Below are positions 54,669 through 60,439 of a DNA stretch of 64,000 nt, in pieces. The translations under genes and the position numbers were made by a program. Below the pieces are notes generated by a model that was not told the DNA's origin, did not search any database, and saw only the letters and a program-made list of their open reading frames with translations. Where the stretch lies: the NCBI RefSeq assembly GCF_030690345.1, contig NZ_JAUYGV010000009.1:248001-312000 (forward strand), in the 5' to 3' direction. This stretch comes from Rheinheimera sp. (GTDB taxonomy: Bacteria > Pseudomonadota > Gammaproteobacteria > Enterobacterales > Alteromonadaceae). Within the stretch, counting starts at the first letter, position 1. Every line of letters starts with the position of its first letter.

Positions 54669-54715
54669 TTATTCTACCGTAACCGACTTCGCCAAATTAC
54701 GTGGCTGGTCTGCGT
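54669..54715 (-). pseudogene. Remnant of a glmS 3' end
   Basis: Read on the minus strand these bases encode DQPRNLAKSVTVE and a stop, the exact last 13 residues of the intact GlmS encoded from 60439. DNA identity with 58610-58656 is 42 of 47 bases, with a 27-base identical core; four of the five differences are silent. Nothing upstream of it encodes more GlmS, so it is a cut-off tail at the far boundary of an inserted segment. Confidence 0.85.
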
Positions 54716-54731
54716 ATAAGCTGTTTTATAA

Positions 54732-54757
54732 AATTACAACTTTTAGGCTTTGTAATT
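54732..54757 (-). terminator. Weak AT-rich hairpin after the PIN gene
   Basis: AATTACAA and TTGTAATT form an 8-bp stem downstream of the PIN-domain gene, followed on the minus strand by TTATAAAA. It is a plausible but weak terminator. Confidence 0.4.
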
Positions 54758-54773
54758 GGCGCACAGCACCTTG

Positions 54774-55331
54774 TTATAACTGCGGTTCGCCAAATAAACG
54801 CTGATAGTCGGCTTTAAAGTTGGCGGGCAGGTCGGCAATATAGCGCCAGTAATCGCACAGGCCATTAATGGTTTTCATATCGGTATGGCCGCAATCTAAC
54901 ATGATCTTCAGCAGCTCAAGTGTCGGCATAACATCAGCGGCAAAAATGTGAGCCAGCGCGGTCATATCCTGATCATCTGTTACCACCGGCACGCCCAGTT
55001 CTAATGCATAAGCGATATACCAAACATCTACTCTGGACGGGCCGGGATGTTCAGTCAGCACATAATCCCAAATATAATCAAAGTTTTGTTGAATGGATGC
55101 CTTTTGCTTGCGGCTTATTTTAGGAAAGTGTTTACGGTTATCTGCAAATTCATCTTCTTCTACCCAGGGAAACTTGCTTTGCAGTTTACGGTTTTCAAGC
55201 TCCTGATTTAACTCGGGCAGAATGTACAAACAAAACTGGTTGGCACCGAAGGGTACAAACAATAAGGGCCGTATCGTTTTGGCTAACCTTAAGTAGGCGT
55301 TGGTATCAACCAGAATTTTTGCTTGTGGCAT
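54774..55331 (-). CDS. PIN-domain protein paired with the XRE-ImmA gene
   Basis: The 185-residue protein has the acidic residues of PIN-fold nucleases: Asp9 in ILVDTNAYL, Glu44 in LNQELENRK, Asp102 in RVDVWYIAYA and Asp119/120/122 in VVTDDQDM. PIN proteins of this size are usually single-strand RNases and often toxins. It starts with a TGATG overlap to the HTH-ImmA gene, so the two are translationally coupled. In related two-gene units the HTH-ImmA partner represses the operon and may cleave a target under stress. Toxin activity here is inference. A C-terminal extension of about 40 residues beyond the core is present. Confidence 0.75.
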   Translation of the reverse strand: MPQAKILVDTNAYLRLAKTIRPLLFVPFGANQFCLYILPELNQELENRKLQSKFPWVEEDEFADNRKHFPKISRKQKASIQQNFDYIWDYVLTEHPGPSRVDVWYIAYALELGVPVVTDDQDMTALAHIFAADVMPTLELLKIMLDCGHTDMKTINGLCDYWRYIADLPANFKADYQRLFGEPQL

Positions 55332-58246: not shown

Positions 58247-58469
58247 TCAGAGTGATAGCTTAGCCTTGATATCATGCCACGACAAACCCGCAACATAATC
58301 AGCTTCAATTTCGTCCACACCCTGCTCGGGCAGCGCCTGCCATTGCTGCCCGACATCGGAACCATGCTGTGGGTCGAGGCTGGTTATCAGCTCATGCGCC
58401 AGTTTTGCCCGCTCGTCTGCATTCAGGCTTTTTCTGCTTGCCAGTACTTGCTCGAACTAAGGTTGTCAT
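58247..58469 (-). pseudogene. Frameshifted addiction-module antitoxin
   Basis: From ATG 58469 the frame starts MTTL and then shifts. Removing one base near 58458 restores an uninterrupted 73-residue antitoxin-like protein: FEQVLASRKSLNADERAKLA, then ELITSLDP and a C-terminal EIEADYVAGLSWHDIKAK. The NADERAKLAHELI pattern is that of small addiction-module (Unstab_antitox) proteins that pair with RelE/ParE toxins. The bases after its stop begin IVFHENAL, like a toxin N-terminus, but run into unrelated sequence and stop at about 58158. The module is therefore dead unless the shift is a sequencing error or programmed. Confidence 0.65.
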
Positions 58470-58548
58470 TTTCTGCCGCCTTAATGCTTTGGAATTTTGA
58501 TTGTAGCAGTTTGGTAAGTTCAGCCAAGCTGGCAAAACGACAATAAAA

Positions 58549-58578
58549 AAGGCCATCACAGTAGCTGTTGATGGCCTT
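58549..58578 (-). terminator. Intrinsic terminator of glmS
   Basis: AAGGCCATCA and TGATGGCCTT form a 10-bp stem with a ten-base loop. On the minus strand it is followed by TTTTTTATTG. It lies about 30 bases after the glmS stop. Confidence 0.88.
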
Positions 58579-58609
58579 GGCATTTTTAGTGCAACTTTAT
58601 TGTAGCGGC

Positions 58610-60439
58610 TTACTCCACTGTAACTGACTTCGCCAAATTACGTGGCTGGTCTACGTCGGTACCTTTGATAATGGCGACGTAGTAGCTTAGTAACTGCAGT
58701 GGCAGGGTGTAGACGATAGGCGCGAGGATGTCGGCGACGTGCGGTACGTTGATGACCCGCATAGTGGCGTCGGACTGGAACTTAGCATCGGCGTCGGCGA
58801 ATACATACAGAATACCACCACGGGCGCGTACTTCTTCGACGTTGGATTTCAGCTTTTCCAGCAGATCGTTGTTTGGCGCTACCACGATAATTGGCATTTG
58901 GGCGTCAATCAGCGCCAGCGGGCCGTGTTTTAACTCGCCGGCGGCGTAGGCTTCAGCGTGAATGTAAGAGATTTCTTTGAGCTTTAACGCGCCTTCCATT
59001 GCGATAGGGTACTGATCGCCACGGCCTAAAAACAGTGCGTGGTGTTTATCGGCAAACTCTTCCGCCAGGGCTTCAATTTGTGGCGCCAGCGTAAGGGCTT
59101 GCTCCAGTTTACCCGGTAAGCTTTTCAGCGCTTCGGTTAACTCGCGCTGCTGCGCGCCAGTTAAGCCGTTATATTTACCAATTGCCAGGGTTAACATGGC
59201 CAAGCCTACCAACTGTGTGGTAAAGGCTTTGGTGGAAGCCACGCCGATTTCGGCGCCAGCGCGGGTCATAAAGGCTAAGTCTGATTCGCGCACCAGTGAT
59301 GAACCGGCCACGTTACAAATAGTTAAACTGCCTAAGTAACCGGCGTCTTTTGCCAGACGCAGTGCCGCTAAGGTGTCGGCGGTTTCGCCGGACTGAGAAA
59401 TACTGACCAACAGGCTGCCCGGCTGCACAAAGGATTTGCGGTAACGAAATTCAGAGGCAATTTCAACGTTACAGGAAATGCCGCCCAACGATTCTAACCA
59501 GTAGCGCGCCACCATACCGGAGTGATAACTGGTGCCACAGGCCACAATTTGTACGTGTTTTACTTTTTTGAATAGCTCAGCTGCGCCGTTACCGAAGGTT
59601 TCGTCCAGTACGGAATCACTGCTTAAACGGCCTTCCAGCGTTTTGTTGATGGCGTTTGGCTGCTCGTAAATTTCTTTTAGCATAAAGTGGCGGTACTGGC
59701 CTTTGTCGCCGGCGTCGTAACTTACGTTAGACTCGTGCACTTCGCGCTCAACGGCGTTGCCGTTAGTATCAAAAATACTGACGCTGTGGCGGGTAATTTC
59801 AGCCACATCGCCTTCTTCAAGGAAGATAAAGCGCCGGGTAACCGGCAGCAGCGCCAGCTGATCAGAGGCGATAAAGTTCTCACCAATACCCAGGCCGATT
59901 ACCAACGGGCTGCCGGAGCGGGCCACTACAACACGGCTGCTATCAGTTTTATCCAGTAATACCGTGCCGTAAGCACCGTGCAGTTGCTTAACCGATTTTT
60001 GTACTGCTGCCAGCAAGGAGCCGGCGCTTTTCAGCTCTTCTTCGACTAAATGCGCGATAACTTCGGTGTCGGTATCAGAGGTGAACACATAACCTTTGGC
60101 TTTTAACGCATCACGCAGCGGGCTGTGGTTTTCGATAATGCCGTTGTGCACCACAGTAATATTGCTCGATACATGCGGGTGGGCGTTGCGCTCGCTCGGC
60201 TCGCCATGGGTAGCCCAGCGGGTGTGAGCAATACCGGTGCCGCCGCTCACCGGCTTTTCGGCAACAGCATCGGCCAGCTCTTTTACTTTGCCTAAACGGC
60301 GCAGCCTGGTTAACTCGCCGGCTTCGGTAACCACTGCCACACCGGCCGAATCATAACCACGGTACTCGAGGCGACGCAGGCCTTCTACCAGAATATCCAC
60401 TACATCACGTTGCGCTACGGCGCCAACTATTCCACACAT
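58610..60439 (-). CDS. glmS: Glutamine--fructose-6-phosphate aminotransferase
   Basis: The 609-residue protein has the length of E. coli GlmS. It begins MCGIVGAVAQRDVVDILVEG, with catalytic Cys2 exposed after Met removal. The glutaminase domain has LEYRGYDSAGVAV and HTRWATHGEPS. The two SIS isomerase domains follow, with SQSGETADTLAALR and HAEAYAAGELKHGPLALI, and the protein ends in DQPRNLAKSVTVE. It makes glucosamine-6-phosphate, the first step of UDP-GlcNAc synthesis for cell wall and LPS. CGGAGA precedes the ATG. It follows the DeoR-family gene by 56 bases on the same strand. Its 3' end appears to be the boundary of an accessory island. Confidence 0.97.
   Translation of the reverse strand: MCGIVGAVAQRDVVDILVEGLRRLEYRGYDSAGVAVVTEAGELTRLRRLGKVKELADAVAEKPVSGGTGIAHTRWATHGEPSERNAHPHVSSNITVVHNGIIENHSPLRDALKAKGYVFTSDTDTEVIAHLVEEELKSAGSLLAAVQKSVKQLHGAYGTVLLDKTDSSRVVVARSGSPLVIGLGIGENFIASDQLALLPVTRRFIFLEEGDVAEITRHSVSIFDTNGNAVEREVHESNVSYDAGDKGQYRHFMLKEIYEQPNAINKTLEGRLSSDSVLDETFGNGAAELFKKVKHVQIVACGTSYHSGMVARYWLESLGGISCNVEIASEFRYRKSFVQPGSLLVSISQSGETADTLAALRLAKDAGYLGSLTICNVAGSSLVRESDLAFMTRAGAEIGVASTKAFTTQLVGLAMLTLAIGKYNGLTGAQQRELTEALKSLPGKLEQALTLAPQIEALAEEFADKHHALFLGRGDQYPIAMEGALKLKEISYIHAEAYAAGELKHGPLALIDAQMPIIVVAPNNDLLEKLKSNVEEVRARGGILYVFADADAKFQSDATMRVINVPHVADILAPIVYTLPLQLLSYYVAIIKGTDVDQPRNLAKSVTVE

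Follow-up and report, generated by a model that had tools for sequence, protein, structure and literature searches.

The 3′ end of glmS as a probable recurring boundary of exchangeable defense islands in Arsukibacterium

A second glmS tail in the window

The 64,000-nucleotide stretch of contig NZ_JAUYGV010000009.1 that was analyzed here (the window) raises the question of why the end of glmS is present twice, once in the gene itself and once 3.9 kb further downstream, beyond a small group of accessory genes. The answer that we consider probable is that the glmS 3′ end serves as a recurring boundary of exchangeable defense islands in the genus Arsukibacterium, i.e. of islands that are bounded by a gene end and overlap attTn7. 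In the window, glmS (58610–60439, minus strand) is an intact open reading frame (ORF) of 609 amino acids (aa), and its last 13 codons and stop (58610–58651) constitute the real tail, which aligns with the second copy over 58610–58656 (minus strand). The second copy, referred to as the orphan tail (54669–54715, minus strand), consists of 42 nt that correspond to the 13 codons and stop, together with 5 bases of weak similarity. The two tails have 42 of 47 bases in common (89%, from the whole-genome search) and contain an identical core of 27 nt (54685–54711 and 58626–58652), in agreement with a preliminary description of the locus that was made from the sequence alone and is borne out here by repeat, genome and shuffle searches. 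The tail pair is the longest direct repeat between 53 and 60 kb (57 nt, 84%). No third copy was found in the window genome, and two further matches of the whole-genome search are weak and miss the core. The real tail presumably overlaps the TnsD-binding part of attTn7.

Each tail is adjoined by its own hairpin, the folding of which beats all 200 of its own shuffles (z −3.6 and −3.1), and lies beside a CAATAAAAAAGG stretch (54624–54635 and 58541–58552); both features had been described before and are confirmed. The hairpin at the real tail (type B, GGCCATCA...TGATGGCC; 58550–58578, minus strand) is also the glmS terminator of the sister species G009, G024 and G029. The hairpin at the orphan tail (type A, TGCACC...GGGCC...GGTGCA; 54619–54666, minus strand) is larger and is the glmS terminator of a different group of relatives, clade X (in G006 and G008; interrupted in G001). 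An Rfam scan of positions 54000–60500 and a tRNA scan of the whole window gave no matches. A chance repeat or an assembly artefact, to which we assign next to no probability, is refuted by the shuffles, since matches to the 26-nt tail core at ≤3 mismatches number exactly two in the window and none in 100 shuffled sequences, and by four further genomes, assembled separately, that have this arrangement, among them those of A. perlucidum DSM 18276 and A. tuosuense.

Paired and single tails across the genus

The genus sample comprised 31 Arsukibacterium genomes, including that of the window (G000). glmS is present in all of them, and its downstream region was read to ∼17 kb in each (in G014 142 nt from the tail start, in G012 2.1 kb and in G005 6.0 kb). 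A second tail was defined as a match on the same strand, downstream of glmS, with at most 4 mismatches in 26 nt. Paired tails were found in five of the 31 genomes: the window genome (3,941 bp apart), G004 (A. perlucidum DSM 18276; 1,451 bp), G010 (A. sp. M30B15; 1,447 bp), G026 (A. tuosuense; 1,449 bp) and G028 (A. sp. UBA5043; 4,834 bp). In all five, the orphan tail is followed by a type-A hairpin and then by a laminarinase-like gene, which in the window lies at 52326–54470 on the minus strand and was named by eye from its sequence. In G008 and G006, a single tail leads directly into the type-A hairpin, so these genomes display a single-gene-end site, which may either never have been occupied or have been precisely excised. 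A type-A end at glmS is also present in G001, where it is broken by a Tn7-like insertion. In an alignment anchored in the laminarinase gene, and therefore independent of the tail pattern, genomes with a recognizable type-A hairpin or its remnant had either the complete tail or no tail at all.

The proposal of the preliminary description that the glmS tail acts as an island boundary is thus upheld by both types of site for which it had suggested looking, namely empty single-tail sites (G008 and G006) and paired tails with other cargo between them (G004, G010, G026 and G028). The opposite picture, in which all relatives retain both tails and the same genes, is not what was found, as only five of the 31 genomes have paired tails and their cargo differs.

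Cargo between the tails

A Fic gene is located between the tails of G004, G010 and G026, and the G004 copy matches the PADLOC SoFic model with an E-value of 9e-116. The cargo of G028 comprises a putAbiC protein, a protein with a GmrSD N-domain, an XRE-ImmA protein and a PIN-like protein. The last two form a pair that is also found in the window, together with a third protein. The XRE-ImmA protein of the window (55331–56500, minus strand; HTH_3 and Peptidase_M78 domains) is RmrA-like according to PADLOC (E 4e-13), and its gene is 87.7% identical to that of G028 at the nucleotide level. It overlaps by 1 base the gene of the 185-aa PIN-like protein (54774–55331, minus strand; weak match, E 0.019). 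The third protein (56776–58119, minus strand) has 447 aa, is encoded by an AT-rich gene and is predicted to be coiled-coil and probably membrane-bound; it could be assigned to no specific family, its matches being mostly of the coiled-coil type and below curated cut-offs. The XRE-ImmA family is widespread, with 2,269 proteins at E ≤0.001 among 7,997 scored candidates, and a literature search for RmrAT returned nothing relevant. Outside the genus, an orphan tail was found in G146, which belongs to another family of the same order. The 10.4 kb between its glmS and the orphan tail contain genes of type I restriction subunits, HEC-01, an Mrr-type enzyme and one 288-aa protein without a specific family.

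These cargo scans covered ORFs of ∼80 aa or more; for G010 and G026, the Fic cluster of G004 served as the representative, and PADLOC was the only scan applied to four of the seven proteins of G146. Judged from these sequence matches, the site qualifies as a predicted defense island, with several different anti-phage-type systems at one site in relatives, and the cargo had indeed been expected to be of the defense type. The expected absence of tns genes was also found: no ORF between the tails of the window, G004, G028 and G146 matched Tns proteins.

Boundaries of the island

The glmS similarity of the orphan tails begins at the same place, GACCAGCC, to within ∼2 bases in all six cases (the five genus genomes and G146). 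Over the 150 nt that begin with the orphan tail, the ten possible pairs of the five genus genomes are all 83–92% alike. The 150 nt to the left of the orphan tail are 82–98% alike within the clade-X genomes with paired tails, 45–47% alike between the window and clade X, and 38–47% alike between G146 and the other five genomes, a value that shuffled sequence also yields. The left flanks of the window, clade X and G146, which are unrelated to one another, are thus joined at the same place in the tail.

Both ends of the island can be placed in the comparison of G004 and G026. The identity of these genomes is 86.3% in the last 300 nt of glmS before the tail, with 11–14% difference through the last 1 kb of the gene up to the tail, and it rises to 98.7% in the first 150 nt from the start of the real tail (2 of 150 positions different). 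Near-identity is also observed ahead of the orphan tail (98.0% in 150 nt; 6 of 452 positions different between +1000 and the orphan), and the value drops to 86.0% in the 150 nt after the orphan start (21 of 148 positions different in the next 148 nt). With the tails at 0 and 1451, the change-points are at 15 (support range 0–29) and 1452 (1428–1457), with likelihood ratios of 27 and 26 and Fisher tests of 4.5e-6 and 4.0e-9. In a control of 406 genus pairs, which concerned the glmS side only and omitted G014 and G001 (short or masked sequence), the identity rise at the real tail was +12.3 points for G004–G026, +3.0 for the next pair and −26.9 as the median. In three of the 406 pairs, conservation in the 150 nt after the tail start equals or exceeds that in the preceding 300 nt; among these, G004–G026 alone stands out. 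Because the near-identity starts at the real tail and ends at the orphan tail, a tail-to-tail unit appears to have moved between the species A. perlucidum and A. tuosuense, a conclusion based on this one pair. At fourfold sites, the Fic genes of G004 and G010 are 90% identical, compared with 60% for valS, 62% for glmS and 52.5% for the laminarinase gene, but the unit ends of G010 are not sharp.

A rather unlikely alternative to such movement, which needs no recombinase, is one-sided homologous recombination with an illegitimate joint (HFIR). The incoming DNA would find its anchor in glmS and join at a random point within the former gene end, and the old tail would remain downstream. Orphaned 3′ ends are a known outcome of HFIR, examples being displaced rhs tips and immunity genes of the type VI secretion system (T6SS), and HFIR has been proposed for the T6SS arrays of V. 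cholerae (PMC5361080). However, under HFIR the replaced tracts of glmS should vary in length and the joints should vary as well, whereas three unrelated left flanks meet at the same place and both ends of the G004–G026 tract are located at tails. The glmS gene of G028 lends additional support to the tail-bounded unit and also bears on this alternative. In the 130 nt before its tail, the closest genome is its sister G008 (117 of 130 positions; next best 106), which is also the closest in six of nine windows of the glmS body, and for the 42-nt tail G008 is outside the eight closest genomes. The foreign part of G028 glmS would thus reach at most ∼50 nt beyond the tail, as judged from an alignment read by eye. 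A RecA tract would be expected to be longer, so a long anchor in glmS is disfavored, and the long replaced tract expected from HFIR is not seen in G028.

Ordinary homologous recombination in the flanks could also swap cargo between heirs of an old paired-tail arrangement, in which case the orphan tail would be a passive relic. A single ancestral joint is possible, as the left flank is common to G004, G010, G026 and G028; the Fic gene contains internal mosaics; and conserved stretches around the laminarinase start (94% at 1560–2000 in G004–G026) offer homology. Nevertheless, the boundaries of the G004–G026 tract are at the tails and not inside glmS or the laminarinase gene, the single-tail genome G008 lies inside the clade, so that gain or precise loss has to be added, and G146 is left unexplained. 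We consider recombination in the flanks an improbable source of the pattern.

Proposed mechanism of joining

The reading that we favor overall, with moderate confidence, is that a tail-carrying unit joins at the resident glmS tail. Besides cargo and a terminator, the unit would bring a glmS tail of its own, and it would join at the tail of the resident gene, which would keep its body and then end in the tail of the unit. The old tail and terminator of the resident would be pushed to the far side and become the orphan tail. The joining may take the form of a single crossover within about 30 bases of the tail start. In G010, G026 and G028 the orphan tail has T at its second base, in contrast to A in real tails, as if this base came from the unit, which would put the crossover to its right; together with the support range of the left change-point (0–29), this would confine the crossover to about the first 30 bases. 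It could be catalyzed in trans or by a recombinase that has since been lost, or it could result from short-homology recombination. The anatomy is, by analogy, that of an attL/attR pair as left by integration at a gene 3′ end. In the window, the orphan tail would be second-hand, having come from a clade-X-like donor with at least the neighboring part of the laminarin locus and now standing beside a glmS that keeps the end of its own clade.

Several observations weigh against this reading. No integrase or recombinase was recognized among the scanned ORFs of the six tail-bounded intervals (window, G004, G010, G026, G028 and G146), which speaks against a self-mobile element. In addition, G021, G022 and G030 hold other cargo for which no tail is present, the joint being located at the stop codon or close to it. 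The common left edge stems in part from the search, the pattern of which starts at the edge base and misses orphan tails much shorter than 26 nt, longer ones being detectable. The last 10 bases of the left flank of the window resemble those of clade X (CTTATACGCA and CTTAACGCAA), so these two joints may share an origin and not be fully independent. Both sharp boundaries are present in one genome pair only, G004–G026, and are missing from the G004–G010 and G010–G026 pairs. Inside the G004–G026 tract, positions 250–650 are only 82.8% identical, so the unit would have recombined since, and the contrast beyond the orphan is local (86% in the first ∼100 nt, 94% over 1560–2000, at the start of the laminarinase gene, and then 85–87%). 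The orphan core is closest to the real tail of the same genome in G000 (tied) and G004, but not in G010, G026 or G028. Finally, the orphan tail of the window is of a foreign type, as described below, and the pair in the window thus records no insertion at this glmS.

Defense genes move often, and many of their sites show no recombinase. A more specific version, which we put forward only tentatively, is that recombinase-less defense cassettes are recognized by the glmS tail as the attTn7 target and joined at a fixed base by an enzyme acting in trans, possibly from Tn7-like elements or another host recombinase. As the ends of the moved unit are placed within ∼30 bases and both A. perlucidum DSM 18276 and A. 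tuosuense are in culture, movement of such cassettes is directly testable. The data also point to a second kind of island at the same glmS end as Tn7.

Relation to known elements

Integrase-borne genomic islands rebuild the 3′ end of the gene that they target (tRNA genes, guaA, prfC and the like). The glmS-tail islands resemble them in the direct repetition of the gene 3′ end at both ends, the tail of the element being received by the host gene, the single-tail sites and the variable cargo, and differ from them in that no integrase was recognized between the tails. To our knowledge, glmS is not among the targets of such integrases. Of the suggestion that the island is integrase-type or driven by recombination, the first part finds no counterpart in the six intervals, and the second agrees with the tail-bounded unit that appears to have moved in one pair of relatives.

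Tn7 and Tn7-like elements at attTn7 use the same site and 3′ tail, form islands with varied cargo and are present in relatives. A relic of such a transposon was accordingly weighed as a source of the paired tails. Tns-like gene clusters adjoin glmS in six relatives (G001, G002, G015, G016, G017 and G020). In that of G002, the only one scanned, four of five proteins match TnsA, TnsC, TnsD/TniQ and TnsE, and a 707-aa protein has no match. The glmS tail, in addition, is assumed to contain the TnsD target. However, Tn7-like elements insert downstream of the stop codon and carry tns genes, and their transposition is not known to copy the glmS tail. In the genomes studied here, a single tail remains beside such an element, which begins some tens of bases past the stop with a TGTGGG-type end. 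G027 and G003 are examples of relatives with Tn7-type ends downstream of the stop, whereas at the paired tails the tail is copied instead (by eye). The relic was rejected as very improbable, as no tns gene was recognized among the scanned ORFs of ∼80 aa or more between the paired tails and, by eye, no TGTGGG-type end is present at them. TGTGGG-type ends without a visible Tns cluster occur in G003, G014 and G027.

Tsy and Tn6022 at comM are similar to the glmS-tail islands in that pieces of the target gene flank the element on either side (PMC10293859). The products of Tsy include a tyrosine recombinase, an HTH protein and a TnsF-like selector, and the element splits comM (PMC10293859). In the islands studied here, glmS stays whole and no such genes were seen between the tails. 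The displacement of 3′ ends at rhs and T6SS loci, for which HFIR has been proposed (PMC5361080), is similar in that the old gene end is orphaned downstream with no recombinase in the locus; the islands at glmS differ from it in having a fixed boundary at a housekeeping gene and in that a single unit ends sharply on both sides. Literature searches of open-licence PMC text brought up no description of paired glmS tails.

Origin of the window locus

The preliminary description had supposed that one glmS end came from a related genome. The species tree on which we rely was built from valS of 30 of the 31 genomes (G022, with a partial gene, was omitted); rpoB was unsuitable, as it was not found in four genomes, including G000, G008 and G028. 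In the valS tree, the window genome groups with G009, G024, G029, G014, G015 and G002, next to G027 and away from clade X, which consists of G001, G004, G006, G008, G010, G026 and G028. Type-B glmS ends are found in G009, G024 and G029, and the first bases of type B precede a TGTGG-type end in G002, G015 and G014 (by eye), whereas type-A ends at the real glmS are present only in G001, G006 and G008 (by eye). From this placement and the end types, classed by eye, the real tail of the window is native and the orphan tail is of the clade-X type, in line with the earlier supposition.

The sister species differ from the window over a larger region. The sequence corresponding to window positions 1–4552 ends ∼0.5 kb (G009), 3.0 kb (G024) and 4.4 kb (G029) from the glmS-matching stretch, so the window has ∼50–54 kb more than these genomes between the genes of 1–4552 and glmS (roughly 4.6–58.3 kb). 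This ∼54-kb block (4600–58300, approximate boundaries) lies between glmS and its left neighbor and is absent from that position in G009, G024 and G029. No full match to the upstream region of the laminarinase gene was found in these three genomes, in which no search for the rest of the block elsewhere was made. The block contains genes for transport, regulation and laminarin use, with functions assigned by eye, in addition to the defense cargo. The 3.9-kb accessory island of the preliminary description is therefore real as an interval with cargo, but it is part of this larger difference.

Different parts of the block have different closest relatives. The XRE-ImmA gene of the window is more similar to that of G028 (87.7%) than are valS (78%) and glmS (82%), and at fourfold sites it is 69% identical against 50–54%; the smaller PIN gene is less clear (54%). 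The 1.5 kb of the laminarinase region nearest the orphan tail are closest to clade X (76–77% to G004 and G028, 70% to G030), and the laminarin locus further out (39–46 kb) is closest to G030 and G007 (80–81%). These similarities suggest that the orphan tail, with at least the tail-adjacent part of the laminarin locus, came from an unsampled clade-X-like donor. Alternatively, the rest of the block may have been lost in the sister species and retained in the window genome. Since the orphan tail seems to have come with part of the laminarin locus, the pair in the window is not a simple two-ended 3.9-kb element.

Between the 447-aa protein gene and the type-B hairpin, a remnant (58266–58540, minus strand) resembles the region after glmS in G029, G007, G021 and G030 (73–77% in an alignment over 58266–58651). 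In G007 and G021, a ParE-like gene, identified from an ORF read by eye, follows glmS where the window has this remnant. In G022, the genes between glmS and the type-A hairpin (L062, 2753–8710; no orphan tail) encode a cytosine methylase, a large protein with two HATPase matches and a HEF_HK domain, and a Response_reg_2 protein, a set that may represent an undescribed defense system. Near the glmS stop of G022 and G019 there are AAAGTTGGAAAGT-type stretches, repeated in G019, which are possibly the ends of another transposon family.

Tails beyond the genus

Broad surveys beyond the genus were mostly without orphan tails. In the survey of the order, 178 of 295 genomes matched, three of them twice (G000, G146 and G226). 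The two glmS-like 3′ regions of G226 are 10.4 kb apart and both run upstream into GlmS coding sequence; the genes between them are not defense-like (by eye). Among seven genomes of the G146 family, the six other than G146 comprised five with one match and one with none. When 2 mismatches were allowed in the order survey, 380 of 394 genomes matched, 23 of them at two or more places on either strand; two or more tail-like matches on one strand (≤2 mismatches) were seen in G099, G136, G172, G269, G270, G323, G696 and G749. In the survey of the class, 307 of 369 genomes matched, eight of them twice (G000 and seven others), and in these seven all 14 matches are preceded by GlmS-like codons in the 20 nt before.

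One allele of the E. coli glmS end was found at 1,033 places in 1,031 of 5,426 genomes, with one genome having up to 3. In a plasmid collection there were eight matching records, of which five have the size of a chromosome, two match at annotated glmS and the last, of 28 kb, carries chromosome-type genes. A shorter form of the distal junction of clade X was found in no viral contig, and the junction itself, searched as a 29-nt pattern, occurs in 4 stretches of the genome contig collection. In G347 (L101), two glmS ends that are 1.9 kb apart are both preceded by GlmS coding sequence, an arrangement that looks like a tandem duplication of glmS.

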